IMG/VR virus record: IMGVR_UViG_3300029319_000211
Location: 1 to 34,511 of that record
Reading direction: 5' to 3' (one strand)
Source of the DNA: a virus
Length of the DNA stretch: 34,511 bases
A model generated the notes under the pieces. It did not search any database and had not been told where the DNA came from. It saw only the letters and a list, made by a program, of their open reading frames with translations. The position numbers were made by a program, and so were the translations under genes. Positions 3,701 through 26,917 of this stretch are shown here, one piece after another (position 1 is the stretch's first letter; each line of letters opens with the position of its first letter).

Positions 3701-6700
3701 CCGCTACTGGCCGGAATCCCGATGATGCCAAGGCCGCAATGGAGAAGGCGACCACTGTAGCCAACAACATCAGAGGCCTATCTAAGAAGGTGAAGAGTCA
3801 GGTCGGAGACAATGACTACGTGCTGCTCCGAGCATCACCATCATATCAACGACTTCGTGCAGATATCGATCGTCTAGTGCAAGCAGGCGTCATCGATGGT
3901 GAGTATGCAGACAGCGTGATGAGCATGATTGAGTATCAAGCCATCACAGCCGCTAAGTCCAGTGGTGGTAGATCTGTAAGTCCAGAGCAGATTCTTCAAG
4001 ACACGGTCGTCACGTACAACAAGCCTCCGGGTGCTGGAATCAACCCGACCATTCGCATTGTCGATGTCGATGAGAACCCACTGTCTGGTCAATCAGGTGT
4101 GCCCAGAGGCTACTTCGAGTACGACGATCGCACCGGCAGAGCAGTCATCAATCTGTTCAAGAATGGAGACATCAACACCGTATGGAAGATGGAGGGTCAC
4201 CTCATCTCTCACATTATGGGTGTCGACTTCAGGAATCGTGTATTCACTTTCTTTGACCACGAATACAACAACGCCGGTCAAATCAGACTGACTGACTCAG
4301 GTAAGCGTCAGTTCGCTGAGGCTTGGTCCGCATACAGGCGTACAGCAGACAACCCGAATGGGTTCATTCGTCGCATGTTCGATGACCTGTGGCTCGGTGT
4401 GCAGAACTACTGGTCGAAGCTTCGTCGCAAGCCCAGGGTCCTTCCGACTGAGTTGAGGGACTACTGGGACCTTGAGTTCGGTGAGCTACCGACAGACATC
4501 AGAAAGGCGAACTCCCTGTCATCTGGAGCGATCTTCCACCGGCTTCGTCGTCAACACGAATCATCCACTCGACCTGTCGGTGAGCAGGCAGCCATGAGAT
4601 CACGGGAATCCATGGTTAAAAATCTTGGCTATGACGAGTCCGTAGTCAGAAGTCTGTTCGGAGACCGTAGAACAAAAACTGTACGTAATGTTCGGGATCT
4701 TGAGAGCGGTGAGATCAAGAGGGTTGTTGAATCTCAATACCTGCCTCGTAAATACGACACCATCGACGCTACGATTCAAGCTATTGCGATGATCAAGACC
4801 GCTGACTTCCGAAAGAGGACGGGTAATCGCAAGTATGTAAACGTTGGAACAGATCGGTACCACGTCTCTGAGAGTTCGTTGAATCACATCGTCAACCGCG
4901 TCAGAAGTCGACTGAGCGGCGCTATGGGTGAAAACTGGCAGACGACTAAAAAGAAGATTTTTCAAGTGAATCGTGATCGAGTCAACGTGCTGAGAGATCA
5001 ATCACTGTGGCCGTCCAACGTTGCAAGCCGTGATGTAAACGCCTTTGCTGACCGGATGTCTGCGGCTAGCGGTAAGCGTGATGGAATGGAGGTCGCTACA
5101 CAGCAAGAGTTCTTCGTGCTCGATGCGAGACAAGAAGCAGGACTGAAGACTCTGTTGCAAGAAATTGGAAATCAACCAGAGGCCGATGCGCTGCCGCTTC
5201 AGTTGCTCGACCCATACGCAAATCTCAAGATCCTGTCGAATGCTGAGTATGAGAAGATTCAACAGGTGTTGATGGACATCGAGGCAACACCACTGAACAG
5301 ACGCAGCCGAAATGTGATGGAAAGGCCTCTGTACGAGAGCATCAGCCAAGCGCTGACACAGCGAGGGTTTGAGACGATTGCTGATTTGATGAAGGTCTCA
5401 ATCAAGTATCTGAGCAAGGATACATACCTTCCTGCCGGATCACATGATCCCGCCATCGCAGATGCAATACGCGGCGGTGTTCGCAAGATGAAGGCCGCCT
5501 ACAAACAGTTGATTGAGATTGCTAAAAGCAAAGACTTCAAGAACATTGATACGGTTGCAGTGTTCTTTAAGTCTCAACTTGATCGAGCGGTATCAAGGAT
5601 ACCCCTGTCCTATCTCGACGACTTAGAAAAGCTGATGATGTACTTCGGCAACGCCGAGACGGACATGGTTGCCAAGGCAACAGAAGATGCTCTTGCTGCC
5701 AAAGCATCCGGCGTGACTCCTATTCCTGTCACTAGGTTCTCGGCTGCTGAGATTGAAACACCGACCATCGAGGGCATTTTCCGCAAGCTGGCGTCAATTC
5801 AACAGATTCTCGACGGCCCATTCGGCATGACCGCTAGAGAGCGGGAGTCTCTGAATGTTCTGAGATCGCTGAAGATCAAGATGGACAATGGCAAGAAGAT
5901 GTCTGATTTGAATGGCGACGAGAGTGCCATTGTTGCAGATGCCATCAATGTCCTACACCAAGGGCTTATAGAAAAGGACGCATACGTTCAGGACATCGGA
6001 GAGCGCCTGATTATGCGTGCTCTTGCTCTACAGACCATGAAGCCGACGTTTTATGGTGCGAAGGGTAGCAGGAGAACAACTACATATAAAACATATAAAG
6101 CTTGGTTCAGCGGGACTAAGGCAGACATTGATTATTTATTTGAGCAGCCAGACTTTAGTAGAGATGTTTTTAGAGAATTTCGTGTACCAGGGCCTAAAGT
6201 AACACTTCAATATGGCGGCAGGGGTAAGAAGATTACCTCAAATGAAATCGGTATTATCGACGAGTTCAAAGATGTAGTAGCTAGAAAGGTTGGTCGTGAG
6301 CTTCCTGAAGTGAACCTGCGCATGATCTCTATGTTGATGCTCATGAAGATGGACGATGTGCAGCATGAGATCGCCCAGGAGCTTTTGAGTCTTGGGTACA
6401 ACGCCACTAGAAGAGATGTGGTGGGGTCTCAACCTTTGTCGTCACAGATAAGTGTGGACCGATATCGATACCCAGAAAGGGTGATTTTCTACCTTAATCG
6501 TGAGCTTGATCAGTCTGACATCATCAAGTTCGGCGGCAGTAAGAGTAAGGCTCCATTGAAGCCAGGAGATGATCTGTATGGTCCGACAGAAGTTGGCGAT
6601 GTCGACTTCAAGACAAAACCTCAGCCACTGAATGAGCTTGATTTTGCTGCTCAACATGAGGCTCACAGCATTCTGAACCGTGGCGGATTCCGAATAGAAA

Positions 6701-13273: not shown

Positions 13274-13489
13274 ATGTATCAAAGTAAAATTGCATGGGCT
13301 CGAACTCAACTCAACTCTAAGTTCGGCGATAAGTCTGGGGGCATTCGCGCTCTTCTTGTTGTGATTAGTGAGCTTGAAACTAAAATTTCTAAACTAGAGG
13401 CAGATGCGAAGGCTAAAAAATCTAAGCCTGCCGCTAAGAAGCCTGCCGCTAAGAAGCCTGCCGCTAAGAAGTCCACAGCTAAAAAGTAG
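13274..13489 (+). CDS. Small protein with histone-H1-like Ala/Lys/Pro tail
   Basis: This 71-aa protein has AGGTGGA upstream of ATG 13274. Residues 1-45 look helical with a short coiled-coil stretch (LLVVISELETKISKLEADAKAK). The last 25 residues are an Ala/Lys/Pro tail built from three KPAAK units and a degenerate KSTAK unit, as in H1-like and other nucleoid tails. The tail is strongly basic and could bind DNA or lipopolysaccharide. It sits between the fibre-type genes and the lysis-like block. A DNA-packaging or virion DNA-binding role is possible but not shown. Confidence 0.75.
   Translation: MYQSKIAWARTQLNSKFGDKSGGIRALLVVISELETKISKLEADAKAKKSKPAAKKPAAKKPAAKKSTAKK
13424..13468 (+). repeat. 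Three tandem 15-bp repeats encoding KPAAK
   Basis: The unit AAGCCTGCCGCTAAG occurs three times without change at 13424-13438, 13439-13453 and 13454-13468. Perfect identity at the DNA level suggests recent slippage, so copy number may vary between related phages. Confidence 0.9.
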
Positions 13490-18681: not shown

Positions 18682-19500
18682 TTAATCCTCAAGCAATGAT
18701 TCTTCTGCGTCCGTTTGCTGCACAAGCTCATCAAGCTGCTCAGACAAAACGTTCATGGTGTTGACCTCTGGAACCTCGTTCATGTCTACCACGTTGAGAT
18801 CCTCAGCCGGTGCATCTTGAATCCCGTCGTGCTCGTAAGCGCTTGTAGTGGTGTCGTCCATGGTGACGATGCCGCGAGCAAACGCATACCGGAGGCCGGT
18901 CTTGAGCGCCATCTCGATGGGCCACTGACCCCACGGAGACTGGTTCTTGTTGCGCTTGTAGGAGTCCGAGTTTGCCCGACGCTTCTCGATGTCGGCCTTG
19001 CGGATAACGACGAAGTCCTTGCTGCCGTCCTTGTAGTGGGCGACCACATAGACCGCTACCAGGGTGTCCCAGGACTGCTCTGCCGAGAGATCAGGAACGT
19101 GCTCCAGCTTCGGCTCCGTTCCCTCGATGACGTGGAACGTGTCACTCTCGAACACCGCCTTGGTGCGGAGGCGCACACCGCTCCGAGCGGCGAGCTTCGA
19201 GAACCCTCGGTGAGATACCTGCCACTGTAGGCTCTTGCCTCGTGGAAGCAGGTAGACATCTGGAAGTGGCCCACCGGGCATCAAGCCTGTCATCGCCGAG
19301 AGGGCGACGGCCTGGGCTACTGATGCGGGGTCACACCCGTATAGACGGTCATTGGTCTGTGCAGCCTGACGGAATGCGAGAGCTACACGGCCTGCTGCCT
19401 TTGCCCCTTCTTCCGTACCTGCCATTGCCTGGAGGAAGTCAGAGGCCTTGGACTCTACGACATTCCTGAAGTGATGTGCTGGGTGGATTGCTGTGCTCAT
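18682..19500 (-). CDS. recT: RecT-family single-strand annealing protein
   Basis: This 272-aa protein shows the RecT core. A helical N-terminus leads to DPASVAQAVALSAMTGLMPGGPLPDVYLLPRGKSLQWQVSHRGFSKLAARSGV, then VYVVAHYKDGSKDFVVIRKADIEKRR and NQSPWGQWPIEMALKTGLRYAFARGI. RecT proteins bind single strands left by the partner exonuclease and anneal them to homologous DNA, serving phage recombination and end repair. Length is normal for the family. ATG 19500 has AGGAG 7 nt upstream, inside the end of the exonuclease gene, and the ATGA overlap couples the pair. The tail is acidic. Confidence 0.95.
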   Translation of the reverse strand: MSTAIHPAHHFRNVVESKASDFLQAMAGTEEGAKAAGRVALAFRQAAQTNDRLYGCDPASVAQAVALSAMTGLMPGGPLPDVYLLPRGKSLQWQVSHRGFSKLAARSGVRLRTKAVFESDTFHVIEGTEPKLEHVPDLSAEQSWDTLVAVYVVAHYKDGSKDFVVIRKADIEKRRANSDSYKRNKNQSPWGQWPIEMALKTGLRYAFARGIVTMDDTTTSAYEHDGIQDAPAEDLNVVDMNEVPEVNTMNVLSEQLDELVQQTDAEESLLED

Positions 19501-20411
19501 TTTTTCTCTCCTGTGAATGAGAACCTGAATGTTCGCGTTGGCTCGCCAATCTTAACGTAGTTCTTGGCGAGGTCTGGGTGATCAGCCTCGAATGAGGCCC
19601 GGTCGAATCGACTACGTGGCTTGCTCTGAGACCACGTAGCTACACCACTGATACCATATGCGGTGCCGATTTCCTCTTTTATTTTGTTCTCAAGCATCCG
19701 CTTCTTTTCGTCTAACTCGGCGCTCATGCGGCGGACCTCCTTGAGTTCCATGGCCAAGTCAAGGTGAGCCTCAGACGGCTCGATGAACTCCTTCGACTCT
19801 TGCTCGAATAGCTTAGCCAGGGATCTGGAGCATGCGGTGGAGCCGTCCACCTCTGGGGGCTTACCCTCTCGAATATGCCTGTCATACCAGTCCCTGACAT
19901 AGTCAATCATCTTAGATTCGACTGATGAATCCCTGTGAATCTTGAAGCATCGGTACTCATCGTTCATGGTTGCGAAGGCAGCAAGGTCACATCGTTCATC
20001 ATCCGTCACCGCCATCTGCCAGATACACTGGGCCGCGTAGTATGGCGGCACACCGTTGGAGCCTGACATGCCCCACTTGTGGTCGAACTTGCGCGTCGAC
20101 TTGATCTCAAGCAGCCAGCGAGCGTCCTCCGACTTTACAAAAAAGTCTGGGCGCGCATGCATCCACTCCTCTGGCCCGATGATTGGAGCGGCCTCGTATT
20201 CTGGTCCCTTCTCGATCTGGACGTTGTTCAGGTGGGCATAGTGGGCACCAATGGCTGGCTCAAGGATGTGACCTCGTTGCGTAGCTGCGGACGAGGAGCT
20301 TTCAGTCAGACCGTGGGCTCGCGCCCATACATCCCATGGGCTGCTCCAGGGTGACAGACCGAGGATGGCCCCGATGCTGCTGCTCCCGATTGTGGGTAGG
20401 TTGTCGTTCAT
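19497..20411 (-). CDS. YqaJ-type (lambda Exo-like) alkaline exonuclease
   Basis: This 304-aa protein carries the YqaJ nuclease signature. It has SSSIGAILGLSPWSSPWDVWARAHG at the N-terminus, RGHILEP with Glu51, then RPDFF (Asp89) and LLEIKST (Glu102, Lys104) forming the PD-(D/E)xK active site. The enzyme is expected to resect 5' strands of double-strand ends for RecT. ATG 20411 is chosen because AGGAAA lies a few bases upstream; the longer reading from 20480 would run across the control region and its palindrome. The gene heads the leftward recombination unit and is divergent from a Cro-like regulator. Confidence 0.93.
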   Translation of the reverse strand: MNDNLPTIGSSSIGAILGLSPWSSPWDVWARAHGLTESSSSAATQRGHILEPAIGAHYAHLNNVQIEKGPEYEAAPIIGPEEWMHARPDFFVKSEDARWLLEIKSTRKFDHKWGMSGSNGVPPYYAAQCIWQMAVTDDERCDLAAFATMNDEYRCFKIHRDSSVESKMIDYVRDWYDRHIREGKPPEVDGSTACSRSLAKLFEQESKEFIEPSEAHLDLAMELKEVRRMSAELDEKKRMLENKIKEEIGTAYGISGVATWSQSKPRSRFDRASFEADHPDLAKNYVKIGEPTRTFRFSFTGEKK

Positions 20412-20498
20412 GTTTGTTTTTCCTGTGGTTTGATTTATGGTATCACGATGTGATGTTCTGAACATCACTGAACCGGACATTTTCTGACTGGACTTTTT
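20412..20498. promoter_or_regulatory. Divergent control region with 19-bp perfect palindrome operator
   Basis: GTGATGTTC (20450-20458), one central T, and GAACATCAC (20460-20468) form a perfect palindrome. An extra ATCAC half-site (20442-20446) lies 3 bp to the left. The element sits between the leftward exonuclease gene and the rightward Cro-like gene at 20499. A weak leftward promoter can be drawn as TTCAGA, 17 bp, CATAAA, overlapping the palindrome, so binding would block it. The operator is strongly suggested by its symmetry; the promoter is tentative. Confidence 0.7.
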
Positions 20499-20729
20499 AT
20501 GGACATCCGATCATTTCGTGAAAGCCAACCTTCATTCAACAGCCGATTTGGCTTCTGCAAGTGGATGAACGAGACACTCAACCCTCAAGGGCTCAGTGTC
20601 TCCGTTGCTTACCTTCGAGACCTTGAGTCAGGCAGGTCAATACCGTCGCTGCGTCTTGCGATTGCCATCGAGGACTTCACAAAAAAGAAGGTGACGGTGA
20701 GAGACTGGCTCGGACTTCAACTGCGATGA
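20499..20729 (+). CDS. Cro/CI-type helix-turn-helix regulator
   Basis: This 76-aa protein is the only rightward gene in the leftward arm. Its second half, VSVAYLRDLESGRSIPSLRLAIAIEDFTKKKVTVRDW, fits a Cro-like helix-turn-helix: a recognition helix, then the ESGR-P-S--LA-AIE--T---V---DW pattern. The size fits a dimerising repressor with no extra domain. The 19-bp palindrome 31 bp upstream is a likely binding site, so it may control itself and the exonuclease-RecT unit. GGA lies 5 nt before ATG 20499. It converges on a small leftward gene whose stop lies 1 nt beyond its own. Confidence 0.82.
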   Translation: MDIRSFRESQPSFNSRFGFCKWMNETLNPQGLSVSVAYLRDLESGRSIPSLRLAIAIEDFTKKKVTVRDWLGLQLR

Positions 20730-20941: not shown

Positions 20942-22309
20942 TTAAGAGCACCCGAGCTTAGTGTAGAGTCTTTGACGCTTCCGAGCGAGTCCATGCATTG
21001 CTCCGCTATCGTCAATGCAATCAATAACAATCGGATCTTGCTTCTGTGGGTGGGGTCGCATGACGCGACCGATCCTTTGCTGTATTCGGCCCATAGCTTT
21101 CGTCGGAGTTGTGAGTACAACAGTGTCGAGTGATGGAAGATCAAGGCCCTCATCTGCGACGGTTGTGGCACAAACGACTTGAATCTCTCTGTTATCTGCA
21201 CGTTCTAAAACCTCTGCTCTTTGTTTCTTTGTCATTCGACCGACGAGGGGTTCTGCGACGATCGAGTGTGATCGAAGCACCTCGGCAATCTTCATGCAGT
21301 GATCAACACGATCAGAGAGCACGAGGATCTGTCGGCCATTTTCACATGCCTTCACGACACGGTTGATGATCTTCGCGTTGCGTTGATCGTCGGTTGTCAT
21401 CTTAGTAATCAGCTTCGACCAGTCGACTCGATTCGGCGGACCACTGTAGTCAGTGAATAGCCACTCGATTGTTGGCGCTACAACGTGCCCAGACGCAGTC
21501 AACTGAGCGTTGGTGATCTCGTAGACCGGCTGACCGAAGTGCCACCACAGAATCGAAGTGAGGCCATCGGGCCGCTCTGGCGTAGCGGTCAATCCGAGTC
21601 GGTGTCTTGCTGGCATGCAGAACATGACAGAACAAAACGTGTGCGCTGGAACGTGGTGTGCTTCATCAACGATACACAATCCGAACTGACGCCCGAACTG
21701 GTAGCGCTCTGTAAATGACATTCGTTCAAGAGTCTGGAAAGTTGCGACGACAATCCGTCCAGAGTCATCTTTCTTACCCGCGCCATACTGAGTTGCCTCC
21801 TCGTTGAGCATCGACTGAATCCGATTCATCCACTGCACTGCCAGGTCATTCGTATGGACGAGCACCAATGCCTTGGTACCGAACTTCGTCATGGCAGATA
21901 CACCGATGGCTGTTTTACCGGCACCGCAAGGGGCTACAATCACTCCCTCACCCTGATTGTTGAGCCACGCATCGAGCGCACTCTGCTGGTAGTCCCGTAG
22001 CGAGAACCCCTTCGATAGGGTCAACAGACGGGCGTCTGGTGCGGTCCTCTTGTCGATAATGTGGCCCAAGTCCATCTGTGACGCCGCCTTGCGGGGCACA
22101 GCGAGGCCTCCACCCCATGGGTGGTCCAGAGGGATTCGGTGACATGCATTGATGTGCTTGTCAGGAATCGGAACGTACTTGCCGTTCTTCCTCATGCCCA
22201 TCGCCATGTCGTACTCAGGATTCCGAATCTGGAATCGGCTCAGCACCGTCTTTTCATTTTCATATCCAGGCGCGAGGAATACCCCGCCACCCAAAGCTGC
22301 CTTACTCAT
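20942..22309 (-). CDS. SF2 DEAD/DEAH-box helicase (type III restriction/SSL2-like)
   Basis: This 455-aa protein has a full SF2 set. FSLRDYQQSALDAW is the Q-like motif, APCGAGKT (126-133) is Walker A, DEAH (215-218) is Walker B, and LTATPERPD is motif III. VCATTVADEGLDLP belongs to the second RecA domain, and QRIGRVMRPH is motif VI. An N-terminal 90-residue extension is less familiar. Such helicases in phages are placed in replication or recombination and can unwind branched DNA. ATG 22309 overlaps the VapE stop by one base (TAATG). The enzyme class is certain; its step in replication is inferred. Confidence 0.93.
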   Translation of the reverse strand: MSKAALGGGVFLAPGYENEKTVLSRFQIRNPEYDMAMGMRKNGKYVPIPDKHINACHRIPLDHPWGGGLAVPRKAASQMDLGHIIDKRTAPDARLLTLSKGFSLRDYQQSALDAWLNNQGEGVIVAPCGAGKTAIGVSAMTKFGTKALVLVHTNDLAVQWMNRIQSMLNEEATQYGAGKKDDSGRIVVATFQTLERMSFTERYQFGRQFGLCIVDEAHHVPAHTFCSVMFCMPARHRLGLTATPERPDGLTSILWWHFGQPVYEITNAQLTASGHVVAPTIEWLFTDYSGPPNRVDWSKLITKMTTDDQRNAKIINRVVKACENGRQILVLSDRVDHCMKIAEVLRSHSIVAEPLVGRMTKKQRAEVLERADNREIQVVCATTVADEGLDLPSLDTVVLTTPTKAMGRIQQRIGRVMRPHPQKQDPIVIDCIDDSGAMHGLARKRQRLYTKLGCS

Positions 22310-23643
22310 TATGCTTCCTTATTACTTAACTTTAGTACTTCATTCTTAGCCCAGACGTATTTTCTTTTACCCCCGAAACTCATTCTCTTCTTTTCGTATC
22401 CCAACTCTCTAAGTATCTCCGCTATTCGCAACTCATCTCGACGACTCATGCGTCCACGATCAATCTTCAAGCCCTCCTCCATGATGAGGTTCATTGTTAC
22501 TGGGCCTCGTTGAATCATGAGGTAGTCGGATATTGGCTCGACCCATGGGTCATCTTGACGATAGATCAGGCTGGAGTTGTGCCGCTCTTCGTCCGCCTCC
22601 TTGTCCAGATACCATGTCTCACCATTCTTAAATGCGACGATGGCCTCGGCCCACAGTTGGTCCCGGTTCTCACGCACCCAGTGAAGGTTGATGGCACTGA
22701 CCTTGATGGGCCAGTACCGTCGAGATCCCGTCATGTCGTTGATGAACTGAGACTCATTCGTCGTACCTGCAAAGACAACGTGACGCTTCAGGGTGATCGC
22801 ATGGCGTCCATACGCTGGTCGGAAGTTATCTTCCTGAGCGCTGAGGAACGCCTTGGTCGCACTGTTAGCGGAGCGCCGCACTGAGTCCAACTCAGCCACC
22901 TCGTAGATCCATGCACGAGCAATCTGGCTGTACGAGTTTGCAGAGCCGATGTCCAACGGCGTATCTGCGAAGTACTCGTCAGTGGCCAGTGTGCGGAACA
23001 GAGTGCTCTTACCAGCGCCCTGCTCACCCGCGAGGATGAGTACACAGTCAGCCTTGCAGCCTGGGCTGTAGGCTCGCGCAATGGCTTGAATGAGCCACTT
23101 CTCCGCCATCTTCTTGTTCAGCTTGGTGTCCAGGCAGTCCGTAGCCTCGACAATCCAAGAGCCCAGACGCGGCGTGCCATCCCACTGAATACTGTCCAAC
23201 CACTCGGTCAGAGGGTTGCGCTTGTTCTCCTCGCCGATCAGTTGCACCGTAGCACTGATGGCCTCATTGCCGTACTCCAGTCCGTATGCACGAGAGACCC
23301 ACAGAGCGATGCGCGTGTCATCGGTGTCCCTGTAGTCACGGTCGTCGATCTTCAGGACATTGGTGAACTCGTTCAACCACACACGGCCACGCCATCTACG
23401 GTCCCGTCGAAGGATGATGTACAGGTTGTTCTTGTTCTTACGTGGTCTACCAGTCGGGTTACCGTCACGGTCCAAGTACTGATCCATGAGGCTAATGACA
23501 CGAGCGTCACCAACGTTTTCAGGGATGACTTCTTCTTCTTGAGGTTGATTGGGCTGATTGATGCAGTTCTCGGATTCAGCGATGTTCAGCAGGTCAGCGA
23601 GTCTTCTTTGTCCAGCGGCGAGGACTTCATCGAGATCAGCCAT
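22309..23643 (-). CDS. VapE/VirE-family replicative helicase (AAA+ ATPase)
   Basis: This 444-aa protein matches the VirE-like phage helicases. The N-terminal helical region includes WLNEFTNVLKI and RIALWVSRAYGLEYGNEAI. Walker A is GEQGAGKST (206-214), Walker B is WIYEVAELD (245-253), a sensor follows at GTTNE (293-297), then the GSRRYWPI block (306-313). The C-terminal winged-helix-like segment spans 370-431 and ends RELGYEKKRMSFGGKRKYVW. It should unwind the fork with the adjacent primase. ATG 23643 is preferred (GGAG 7 nt upstream); ATG 23646 is adjacent. It overlaps the primase end by 8 nt. A smaller protein at 25954-26457 resembles its two ends without the ATPase. Confidence 0.93.
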   Translation of the reverse strand: MADLDEVLAAGQRRLADLLNIAESENCINQPNQPQEEEVIPENVGDARVISLMDQYLDRDGNPTGRPRKNKNNLYIILRRDRRWRGRVWLNEFTNVLKIDDRDYRDTDDTRIALWVSRAYGLEYGNEAISATVQLIGEENKRNPLTEWLDSIQWDGTPRLGSWIVEATDCLDTKLNKKMAEKWLIQAIARAYSPGCKADCVLILAGEQGAGKSTLFRTLATDEYFADTPLDIGSANSYSQIARAWIYEVAELDSVRRSANSATKAFLSAQEDNFRPAYGRHAITLKRHVVFAGTTNESQFINDMTGSRRYWPIKVSAINLHWVRENRDQLWAEAIVAFKNGETWYLDKEADEERHNSSLIYRQDDPWVEPISDYLMIQRGPVTMNLIMEEGLKIDRGRMSRRDELRIAEILRELGYEKKRMSFGGKRKYVWAKNEVLKLSNKEA

Positions 23644-24703
23644 CATTAGACTCCAGCGGTACGCGGTAAAGGGTGTTTTGGGGAAGGAAGTCACAGATTT
23701 CCGACGCATAGTTGTCGCCGGAGTCATCTGAGTCAGTTGCTATGTAGATTTTCATGTCAGTGGAGATGTCCATCTTAGCAAGCGCCTTGAAGCTACCGGA
23801 GGTTCCAGCGACGATTGCAAGATTCAATGACTCTCTGTAGGCCTGCTCGCAAGCACGCATAAAGTCTGTGATGCCCTCACAGATGAGTAGACCAGCAAGG
23901 TGACTGGTGTCCTCGCCACGCATCAATGATTGTGCTGCGGGGTTGGCCATCAGTAGTCCTCCGGCCTCGTATCCTGTAGGCCACCGTGTCTTGGTGACAC
24001 CGTTCTGCCGTCCATTTACAAACGCCACGCTGCGGCAGTGAATACTGGCAAACGTGCCGTCTGGCTCGAAGCACGGTGCAGCGACACGATAGATACCGCC
24101 CCACTGATGTGGGAACCACTCAGGGTACTTGAAGCTATTCGGCAGCGGCATGATGCGGATGCACTGTGTGCTGTCCAGAATCTTCGGAGTAAAGCGCCGT
24201 TGAATCAGCCATCGGCTTAGCTGGTCTGCGAACTGGACGGGCTGACCGAGGGCTACCTCCGTGGTGCTCGTGTTTGCCCACAGGTCCAGAAGCTCTTCCT
24301 GTGGAGGCCTGACATAGCCGGGTGTAGGCTCCGGCCTCATGGTCGGAATCTTCTTCAGGTCGGGCTGTATGTGAGACGGGACGCCTGATGGTGTGCAGTA
24401 CCCCTTCTCAGCGAACCAGTCTCGTACTGCGGATGTCTGCTCCTTTTCGAGATTCCGCACTGGCTGCTGAAAGAAGTGCTGGGCGACGAAGTCTACAACG
24501 TCACCCTTGGCTCCACATCGGTGGCACTTCCATGCCATCTCGCTTCGGGTGAACCCGACGGGTCCGCGCTTCTTGTCTCTGGTTCCACGCTCCAGCAGTC
24601 CGCAGGATGGGCACGGATGAATGGATGAACCATTCCCTCTGCCGTACTGAAGCTCTGCTGCTACTGTCGTAATGCGTGCGTTCTTGCAATCTTGTATCCA
24701 CAT
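23636..24703 (-). CDS. DNA primase with zinc ribbon and Toprim domain
   Basis: This 355-aa protein has an N-terminal zinc ribbon, CPSC (Cys31, Cys34) and CHRC (Cys60, Cys63), that would read single-stranded template. A central region includes WGGIYRVAAPCF...IHCRSV. A Toprim domain follows, with LLICEGITDF (Glu277) and YIATDSDDSGDNY (Asp324, Asp326) binding the metal. It is shorter than DnaG and lacks a helicase domain, which the neighbouring VapE protein provides. ATG 24703 is preceded by AGGAG, which lies in one arm of an RNA stem (see the leader entry). It is expected to lay RNA primers at phage forks. Confidence 0.93.
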   Translation of the reverse strand: MWIQDCKNARITTVAAELQYGRGNGSSIHPCPSCGLLERGTRDKKRGPVGFTRSEMAWKCHRCGAKGDVVDFVAQHFFQQPVRNLEKEQTSAVRDWFAEKGYCTPSGVPSHIQPDLKKIPTMRPEPTPGYVRPPQEELLDLWANTSTTEVALGQPVQFADQLSRWLIQRRFTPKILDSTQCIRIMPLPNSFKYPEWFPHQWGGIYRVAAPCFEPDGTFASIHCRSVAFVNGRQNGVTKTRWPTGYEAGGLLMANPAAQSLMRGEDTSHLAGLLICEGITDFMRACEQAYRESLNLAIVAGTSGSFKALAKMDISTDMKIYIATDSDDSGDNYASEICDFLPQNTLYRVPLESNDG

Positions 24704-24825: not shown

Positions 24826-25164
24826 CTACAAACTGTTTTTTTGTGACACGATCGTGCCGTCTACACGAGCGGTATGTTGACCCACGATGCTGTAGTGCAT
24901 GCGAAGGTCGGGTGTGAGGGTGATGACAACCTTGAGACCTGTCTTCCGATAGACCCTGTTCACCCAGCACATGACTGTGTCGAGTGTTGGAGCTTTGGCC
25001 TCTCGCTTGAGGATGCTGGTGAGCCTCGCTCGACTGGTTCCGTAGACTGCTGCAACTTTCGAGTGTTGTCCTTTACGGAGTCCACCGAGACACTCAGTCA
25101 TCTGGTACACCAGTTGATACGTATCAATACGCTCATAGTCTTCGACTTCGCCTGCTACGGCCAT
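24826..25164 (-). CDS. Helix-turn-helix regulator candidate (112 aa)
   Basis: ATG 25164 is chosen because GGAGA precedes it by 8 nt; the upstream reading to 25254 crosses a GC-rich leader. The centre, KVAAVYGTSRARLTSILKREAKAPTLDTVMCWVNRVYRKTGLKVVITLTP, reads as an XRE-like helix-turn-helix: AVYGTS as turn, RARLTSILKRE as recognition helix, then a small beta-hairpin. An acidic N-terminal helix (DYERIDTYQLVYQM) may dimerise. It heads the primase-helicase unit and could be its regulator. No close named relative is recognised. Confidence 0.75.
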   Translation of the reverse strand: MAVAGEVEDYERIDTYQLVYQMTECLGGLRKGQHSKVAAVYGTSRARLTSILKREAKAPTLDTVMCWVNRVYRKTGLKVVITLTPDLRMHYSIVGQHTARVDGTIVSQKNSL

Positions 25165-25387
25165 GCTCTGCTCTCCGTGTCTGCTGAAAATGCCCCGTTG
25201 TCGCAATACTTTCTCACACGGGGCGGGTGAGGCCTGTTGGGGCAGGAGCGTCACAGAACGTCTATAAATCCTGTGAGATCTCTCCCGTGGTCAGTTGCGA
25301 CTGCCTTTGCACGCGAGAGAGTATTGATAAGACCATTGCTCTAAACTGTTCTCCGTATGACCCTGTTCAAAGTCAACGGTCTGATTG
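25165..25387. other. Intergenic leader region ahead of the replication unit
   Basis: No gene was found in this stretch. On the minus strand it contains TTGACT (25372-25377) and, separately, a TTATAG-like hexamer (25262-25267), but no pair at proper spacing, so the promoter of the replication unit is not placed with confidence. An 8-bp palindrome GAGATCTC lies at 25275-25282. A GC-rich run before the regulator start (25204-25257) could fold but has no convincing stem. Confidence 0.4.
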
Positions 25388-25431
25388 AAAAAAAGTAAGG
25401 TGGGGCCGCCGCCCCGCTTAACGGCGGCCCC
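25388..25431 (-). terminator. Strong intrinsic terminator
   Basis: A perfect 10-bp stem, GGGGCCGCCG with CGGCGGCCCC (plus-strand arms 25402-25411 and 25422-25431), has a 10-nt loop. Seven T follow on the minus strand (plus A at 25388-25394) after a short ACCTTAC spacer. The stem starts a few bases after the stop of the 164-aa gene. It closes the three-gene unit that begins at the 26917-26889 promoter. Confidence 0.85.
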
Positions 25432-25437
25432 GGTGAC

Positions 25438-25932
25438 TCACTTCGCTGCCTCTTCCCCTTCCCCAAGGGTAGGAGCATCTTCGTCAGCCACCAATGTGAG
25501 TTCACGAATCGCTTCGATCGTGTCCGCCTGGAAGGTGATGTTGCCATCACGAGCCTTCTTAGGCAGCTTGTCGAAGACCTCTCGGTCAAGCATCGCCAGA
25601 GCATCTCCGACACCCATCTCTTCAAGGAGTTGCTTCTCCTTGTCCTTCTCGGCGTCGAGGGCGAAGGTGACTGCGTCGAGCAGCACCTTGGCTGTTTGCT
25701 CCCTGGTGAACCCAGAGCGCTTTGCAAAGAGGGCCAGAGCCACCTTCCACGGAATCGAGGAGGTTGCCTTGACTGGCTTGGACTTTGCTCCACGCTTGAG
25801 CTTGCCAGCGATCTTGACGGTGAGGTTCACGTCAATCTCAGAGTTATTGTCGATGTCCCGCTTAGCAAGCGAGACGGCCTTCGGGTTGATCGCCTTTGTG
25901 ATGGCGATGATTTCTTGTGATGTAAGTTCCAC
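25438..25932 (-). CDS. Hypothetical phage protein (164 aa), last gene of a closed unit
   Basis: It starts with GTG 25932 (AGGAG 8 nt upstream). The N-terminus SQEIIAITKAINPKAVSLAKRD is helical, then comes a strand and basic loop (VNLTVKIAGKLKRGAKSKPVK). Next is a helical domain, IPWKVALALFAKRSGFTREQTAKVLLDAV, and a long charged helix ending in an acidic tail (GEGEEAAK). The VAGKLKRG...IPW..ALALF..RSGF arrangement looks familiar from phage early regions but has no function known to me. Basic loop plus acidic tail might suit a DNA-binding or replication accessory protein; this is speculative. Confidence 0.8.
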   Translation of the reverse strand: MELTSQEIIAITKAINPKAVSLAKRDIDNNSEIDVNLTVKIAGKLKRGAKSKPVKATSSIPWKVALALFAKRSGFTREQTAKVLLDAVTFALDAEKDKEKQLLEEMGVGDALAMLDREVFDKLPKKARDGNITFQADTIEAIRELTLVADEDAPTLGEGEEAAK

Positions 25933-25953
25933 AAGACTCTCCTGTGTTGTTGT

Positions 25954-26457
25954 TTAGGCCCCGTCAATCGGGAACCAGCGCATCTTTCTCTCTCCTTTGT
26001 ACGTCACACGTACCTTCTGAAGCCCTTGCTCTTTTAGGGCCTTTGCTATCTTCATCTCAGTGAGCCTCTGCTGTTCTTCCCAGCCTCCTGGGTCTACAAA
26101 CTCAGCGACTGCATCCGTGGTGATGTCATACCGTCTGTATGACGGTGGGTTCATCTCCAGGTACTGTCTCACCTTGTCCCTGAAGTCATCCGGCAAGTTT
26201 GTCCCGTAGATAAGCTGAGGCTCTATCTTCTTTGACGCTGCCATGATGCCAGACTTCAGTTCCTCCTTCGAGCAGACGATTCGGTAGTTTCGGGCCAAGT
26301 AGACTGAGACCTCGGAGAAGTCCGGCTCCGTCATCTTCTTGCCCTTGTAGTACTGCACACCGTCTCGTGTACAACTGAACTTATCGTTGAGTTTGTCGTC
26401 GCTTTTGATTGCCAAGTAGACCTTGTAGGATCCCTCTGCTTCTTCGATGTTTGTCAT
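25954..26457 (-). CDS. VapE-helicase-like protein lacking the ATPase core (167 aa)
   Basis: ATG 26457 has GGAGG 6 nt upstream. The C-terminal 70 residues align by eye with the winged-helix end of the VapE helicase at 22309-23643: VRQYLEMNPP versus ISDYLMIQRG, then KIAKALKEQGLQKVRVTYKG versus RIAEILRELGYEKKRMSFGG, then ERKMRW versus KRKYVW (about 11 of 26 identical). The N-terminal part (EVSVYLARNYRIVCSKEELKSGI) resembles the pre-ATPase helical stretch of the same helicase (RIALWVSRAYGLEYGNEAISA). No Walker A or B motif is present. It could load, regulate or compete with the helicase. The C-terminal similarity is clear; the N-terminal match is weaker. Confidence 0.78.
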   Translation of the reverse strand: MTNIEEAEGSYKVYLAIKSDDKLNDKFSCTRDGVQYYKGKKMTEPDFSEVSVYLARNYRIVCSKEELKSGIMAASKKIEPQLIYGTNLPDDFRDKVRQYLEMNPPSYRRYDITTDAVAEFVDPGGWEEQQRLTEMKIAKALKEQGLQKVRVTYKGERKMRWFPIDGA

Positions 26458-26576
26458 TGACTGCCTCCAGTCTTCTTGGGTACCACTGCTTGGCAAGTTT
26501 GTCAGCTTCTTTGTTGACGCTGTACATAATCATCAAGAAGTAGACCCTGGATATGGTTTGTAAGAGGGTGTATTCC

Positions 26577-26864
26577 TCAGTCACTGTTCTTAGACTTTGC
26601 GAGGTCGGCGAGGCCTTCCCAGTCAATCGTCGAGTTGCGAGACTTACGTTGCAGCTTCTTGAGTGGCACGCCCTTCTTGCGTGCGTAAGAAGCCTTGACT
26701 CCAATGAAGCTACGCTCTTGAGGAGTGTTCTCGAAGTTCAGCTTCTCCAGTACCTCATCGTATGAGTTGGATGTTTGCCAAGCCTCGATGAAAGAGGGCC
26801 ACTCCCACTCTCGCTTCTTGTTTGTCTTCCGTGCCTTTCGTAGTGTTGTTACGTTGTCAGCCAT
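26577..26864 (-). CDS. Small basic helix-turn-helix-like protein (95 aa)
   Basis: First gene after a strong promoter; AGGAG lies 6 nt before ATG 26864. The sequence WPSFIEAWQTSNSYDEVLEKLNFENTPQERSFIGVKASYARKKGVPLKKLQRK follows a recurring phage pattern (W-F--AW--S-S--EV---L ... --A---RKKGV-LKK). I read it as a small helix-turn-helix, like a sigma region 4 fold. The basic N-terminus (RKARKTNKKREW) supports nucleic-acid binding. It leads the unit that includes the ATPase-less VapE-like protein and may regulate it. Positions 26458-26576, between it and the next gene, show no convincing ORF. Confidence 0.75.
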   Translation of the reverse strand: MADNVTTLRKARKTNKKREWEWPSFIEAWQTSNSYDEVLEKLNFENTPQERSFIGVKASYARKKGVPLKKLQRKSRNSTIDWEGLADLAKSKNSD

Positions 26865-26888
26865 TACATTCTCCTGTATGGTCAGGAC

Positions 26889-26917
26889 AGATTAAGGGGT
26901 AATCCCATGTCTGTCAA
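26889..26917 (-). promoter_or_regulatory. Leftward sigma70-like promoter
   Basis: On the minus strand TTGACA (plus 26912-26917) and TAATCT (26889-26894) are 17 bp apart: a perfect -35, optimal spacing and a four-of-six -10. It lies 25 nt before the ATG at 26864 and drives the three-gene unit ending at the 25431-25388 terminator. The -10 hexamer is identical to that of the promoter at 29919-29891. Confidence 0.82.

Follow-up and report, generated by a model that had tools for sequence, protein, structure and literature searches.

P0001, a VapE helicase paralogue without the AAA+ motor, is inherited with VapE in a group of uncultured marine phages

VapE/D5-type helicases power replication in phages, satellites, pathogenicity islands, and poxviruses, and it is still an open question how such a helicase is loaded or brought to a halt. 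A study of SCCmec raises the question of further loading or activation factors (PMC7581432), and the authors of the D5 structure expected no D5_N domains without a following ATPase domain (PMC9611036). What, then, does a VapE-like protein without an ATPase do when it is encoded near an intact VapE? The locus is found on an IMG/VR virus record of 34,511 bases, itself a fragment, which was analysed whole and is called the window below. An initial annotation had described a VapE-like protein without an ATPase in a promoter-to-terminator unit of its own, a description with which profiles, predicted folds, and conserved signals agree. The features discussed are the following.

26889..26917, minus strand: promoter TTGACA-17-TAATCT, with the ACTTGACA core kept in most relatives
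26577..26864, minus strand: P0004, a 95-aa basic HTH-like conserved protein without a family match, first gene of the unit
25954..26457, minus strand: P0001, a 167-aa ATPase-less VapE paralogue, starting with ATG
26218..26457, minus strand: N domain of P0001 (aa 1-80), matching the VapE collar-like domain (~aa 91-170) and 7pds 18-116
25969..26145, minus strand: winged-helix domain of P0001 (aa 105-163), matching VapE aa 403-461
25438..25932, minus strand: P0003, a 164-aa conserved protein with an acidic tail, last gene of the unit
25402..25431, minus strand: intrinsic terminator 3' of the third gene, recurring in relatives
24826..25254, minus strand: conserved HTH-like gene (start uncertain), first of the downstream replication operon
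23636..24703, minus strand: Zn-finger/Toprim primase, upstream of VapE
22309..23727, minus strand: VapE helicase, 472 aa, complete with collar-like domain, AAA+ core, and winged helix
22579..23199, minus strand: AAA+ core of VapE (PF05272, aa 177-383), without a counterpart in P0001
20942..22309, minus strand: SF2 helicase, syntenic with the three-gene unit
19497..20480, minus strand: RecE/YqaJ exonuclease, syntenic with the three-gene unit

The unit reads P0004, then P0001, then P0003 on the minus strand, and is followed in order by the HTH-like gene, the Zn-finger/Toprim primase, VapE, the SF2 helicase, and the RecE-type exonuclease. The 167-aa reading frame proposed initially is real, as it begins with ATG and is open in every relative looked at.

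The resemblance that first drew attention to P0001 lies at its C-terminus, where 11 of 26 residues are identical between P0001 136-161 (KIAKALKEQG...RKMRW) and VapE 434-459 (RIAEILRELG...RKYVW). This count is exact and the likeness exceeds chance. Among all ungapped offsets, +298, which lays P0001 105-163 on VapE, ranks top (z 6.9; 0/5000 shuffles), and +90, which lays P0001 9-80 on VapE, is likewise the highest-scoring offset for that stretch (z 3.3; 6/5000 shuffles). The two differ by 208 residues, the size of the AAA+ core of VapE, and the aligned segments skip VapE residues ~173-380. When alignments of 34 and 41 relatives were compared family against family with hhalign, the C domains gave P 1.1e-13 (98%) and the N domains P 1.7e-4; these are P values of single comparisons, best judged against the controls, in which mismatched domains gave P 0.08-0.19 and column shuffling of the N domain reached 0.018 at best in 60 trials. 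When a profile was made from the P0001 family alone, VapE winged helices matched it with E values between 2e-11 and 4e-9, and the winged helix of a distant phage, Synechococcus phage S-LBS1, did so at 6e-11. The two winged helices share the conserved residues R131/R429, E134/E432, G145/G443, R150/R448, G155/G453, R157/R455, and W161/W459 (P0001/VapE), and both are basic (+7 and +6, respectively). VapE itself matches PF05272 at E 2e-74 over residues 177-383, the region that holds its Walker A and B motifs; P0001 has no PF05272 match, and both motifs are absent from it. The missing core and the weaker likeness to the helical stretch before the ATPase, both part of the original description, are thus borne out.

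Predicted structures agree with this comparison element by element at both ends. In AlphaFold models (mean pLDDT 89 for P0001 and 71 for VapE), P0001 consists of a small helical/hairpin N domain and a winged helix, with no P-loop. Its N-terminal elements H9-19, E27-29, E35-37, H44-58, and H64-74 have counterparts in identical order in VapE (H99-108, E116-119, E124-127, H134-148, and H154-167), and its C-terminal elements H114-121, H130-143, E146-153, and E156-163 correspond to VapE H412-419, H429-441, E444-451, and E454-461. In the PDB, P0001 is matched best by PriRep1 (7pds), a VapE-type helicase on whose residues 18-116 P0001 1-78 aligns with a Z of 9.1 and an rmsd of 2.3 over 78 residues, well above other matches. 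The C-terminus matches winged helices generally (Z 5-6.5), and the best viral fold matches, from BFVD, prominently include VapE or COG5545 proteins. VapE aligns to 7pds along its full length (Z 21.2), and its residues 96-390 align to the D5 helicase from residue 323 onward. As the collar of D5 comprises residues 323-403 (PMC9611036), the N domain is called collar-like here.

P0001 is therefore a VapE helicase minus ~208 internal residues, with both end domains retained: an ancient VapE paralogue without the entire AAA+ motor. A split VapE gene, with complementary halves, is ruled out. VapE is complete, matching 7pds 16-474 over its residues 76-467, and since it retains its own three domains, P0001 is an extra protein rather than half of a divided one. 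Neither Pfam, PHROG, NCBIfam, nor PADLOC contains a family that covers the P0001 family. Whether started from the single protein or from the alignment, searches of Pfam, PHROGs, NCBIfam, PADLOC, and PDB sequences returned weak matches only, of which the most consistent was phrog_1313, a DNA helicase family also matched by VapE, at a colinear position; profile searches placed P0001 in no unrelated family. No match was obtained with tblastn when P0001 and four distant homologues were compared with 50,697 phage records, nor in PADLOC at E 0.1.

P0001 is inherited together with VapE. Its close relatives occupy 27-29 IMG/VR contigs. A survey that started from VapE relatives, extending down to ~46-50% VapE identity, found a P0001 homologue upstream of VapE in every contig reaching that place; the whole-record search added two contigs (L105 and L106) whose homologue had been missed in their stored stretch. 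Conversely, an independent scan with long distant P0001 variants found VapE on every new contig of sufficient length. Both genes occur together on at least 67 contigs, some of them near-identical and most of them fragments; none of the VapE contigs that reach the expected place was found without P0001. In a winged-helix tree, all 33 non-redundant P0001 sequences fall on one side of one branch (95/94) and VapE on the other, and for this reason the P0001/VapE split is read from the tree as having happened once, long ago, with both genes inherited in parallel since then. Branches to outside VapEs are very long, which puts the date and the donor of the split beyond the reach of this tree.

Selection on P0001 is purifying, with dN/dS of 0.04-0.09 where dS is measurable. 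The idea that its winged helix is more constrained than that of VapE was dropped, as two same-contig pairs point in opposite ways. Distant variants of 370-480 aa keep the N domain (hhalign 99.2%), never contain an ATPase, and add one or two winged-helix stretches and an extra tail. Long variants such as those of L120, L123, L114, and their relatives carry acidic linkers and an extra C-terminal domain, and that of L120 has two winged-helix motifs. A lone homologue, 62-64% identical, is located at 4059-4604 of a 6.4-kb contig (L126) from a Deltaproteobacteria UBA2957 metagenome-assembled genome (MAG), a contig that has no other genes in common with the phages. No VapE was detected in this 4.2-Mb MAG, and other genomes of its order gave no comparable P0001 match, one weak match only. 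The copy may be a captured gene or mis-binned phage DNA.

The signals flanking the unit were largely as first described. The promoter, 25 nt before P0004, has the perfect spacing claimed for it (17 nt) and a perfect -35 (TTGACA), but its -10 (TAATCT) is weak (3/6), which is why it is missed by a simple promoter scan. Most relatives keep the ACTTGACA core and the leader ahead of the first gene, even though their upstream DNA and genes are different. The terminator (25431-25402, minus strand) has the perfect 10-bp arms reported earlier, 12 pairs in all, and a T run; 25 of 38 relatives have a terminator-like hairpin at this position, as do a few percent of shuffled sequences. Judged by these predicted signals, P0001 lies in its own promoter-to-terminator unit, with the terminator separating it from the VapE operon. 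The grouping of three genes is less constant among relatives than the presence of P0001. In L099-L104 the P0004 homologue is placed after P0003, and P0003 was not detected in the most distant group, which leaves P0001 as the constant member of the unit. The P0003 family has an invariant IPWK core and an acidic tail, and matches PHROGs only marginally, to families without known function.

The explanation that we tentatively favour, without calling it probable, is that P0001 is an accessory initiator that binds the origin and contacts VapE. The origin is recognised by the C-terminal domain in SaPI Rep, and the isolated C-terminal domain of SCCmec Cch2 alone binds the putative origin (PMC7581432); by this analogy, an origin-binding, VapE-contacting accessory factor would be the likeliest role for P0001. 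Its winged helix would bind the phage origin or VapE's own sites, its collar-like domain would contact the VapE ring, and the protein would in this way mark the origin and help to recruit, load, or position VapE. As the unit has its own promoter and a terminator that shuts it off from the VapE operon, the dose of P0001 could be set apart from that of VapE. An accessory initiator or a regulator is consistent with the universal co-inheritance with VapE and with the homology of the winged helix to domains that bind origins. Against an initiator speaks that VapE-type helicases are described as self-loading, so that a loader is not obviously needed, and that the window yielded no origin or iterons. 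A bolder form, conceivable though we would sooner doubt than assert it, makes P0001 an obligatory motorless subunit: the replisome of this lineage would start with two paralogues that have the collar and the origin-binding winged helix in common, of which only one has the AAA+ motor.

The main rival, which we consider rather unlikely, is that P0001 acts as a brake, occupying the origin through its winged helix or entering the VapE ring through its collar-like domain and, lacking a motor, blocking or timing initiation. The architecture and conservation of P0001 fit this role equally, separate promoter and terminator would permit the separate dosing it calls for, and a truncated initiator has precedent as a negative regulator in RepR' against RepR of pIGRK (PMC6854812). 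However, the gene is never lost in the phage group, though a pure brake might be dispensable, and distant forms gain winged helices and long C-terminal parts rather than shrink. It is less likely still that P0001 has become a transcription factor that no longer acts with VapE and regulates phage promoters such as that of its own unit. Winged helices are common among regulators, many unrelated ones appear among the PDB matches, other HTH-like genes adjoin P0001, and a conserved promoter lies upstream; such a role would leave unexplained why the collar-like domain is also kept, under purifying selection, and why P0001 is so strictly co-inherited with VapE.

That P0001 works as a decoy, or excludes satellites or rival phages with VapE-type helicases, is improbable. 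Unlike accessory defence genes, it belongs to the syntenic core and has been passed down vertically alongside VapE, and it has no PADLOC match. A captured decoy would be consistent with the lone copy in the Deltaproteobacteria MAG, where VapE was not detected, but the contig of that copy may be mis-binned. Hardly credible at all is a chance resemblance, in which the winged helix would be of unrelated origin. Single-sequence searches of Pfam, NCBIfam, and PHROGs did lack a significant match, yet the P0001-only profile matches VapE winged helices, including that of the unrelated S-LBS1, the two ends match VapE in the expected order, and no PDB entry scores above 7pds.

Several known systems share part of this picture. 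The VapE/D5-type self-loading helicases (PF05272; 7pds is PriRep1 of a SaPI) have the same order of collar-like N domain and C-terminal winged helix, whereas P0001 lacks the AAA+ core and has its own gene near a VapE that is intact. Among the best BFVD fold matches are VapE proteins annotated as COG5545, the group named ‘predicted P-loop ATPase and inactivated derivatives’; compared by name, it admits inactive forms but keeps the P-loop domain that is gone in P0001. Helicase loaders of the DnaC/DnaI type resemble P0001 in possible role only, since they are AAA+ ATPases and P0001 has neither an ATPase nor the loader fold. In satellite P4, Cnr acts through the alpha protein and is not known to be a paralogue of alpha. 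By description, Cnr is, like P0001, a small protein linked with a primase-helicase initiator, acting on the copy number of a satellite that has one (PMC8628076). RepR' of pIGRK is a shortened initiator that coexists with the full one (PMC6854812), as P0001 does with VapE, which it could likewise regulate; RepR' arises from an internal start in the same gene and lacks the N-terminus, whereas P0001 has an old gene of its own and is missing the middle part. The initial statement that no equivalent is described stands for the family libraries searched, and RepR' qualifies it as a functional precedent.

That P0001 has been inherited with VapE throughout these uncultured marine phages suggests a type of replication-start partner or regulator not described before, a possible loading or timing factor that nobody has assigned. 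If P0001 were indeed an obligatory motorless subunit, a ‘self-loading’ helicase would have a purpose-built partner. As a conserved natural protein with both flanking domains and no motor, it also offers a tool for asking what the collar and winged helix do alone.

The 34.5-kb window, a fragment, was searched for an origin or a cluster of iterons, and none was found. The spacer between the SF2 helicase and the exonuclease, ~480-890 bp at this place in 29 non-redundant relatives, contains conserved words in many of them. These iteron-like words were discarded as an origin candidate because their positions surround the start of the exonuclease and a plus-strand HTH gene, a small Cro/XRE-like reading frame at 20499-20729. 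The only repeat returned by the iteron search is a 15-bp tandem repeat, AAGCCTGCCGCTAAG, at 13424-13486, which probably codes for a KPAAK-type lysine-rich protein tail. A 12-nt inverted repeat (25204-25215 and 25315-25326, 99 nt apart) brackets the leader of the first gene of the primase-VapE operon, the HTH-like one, and is a possible operator.
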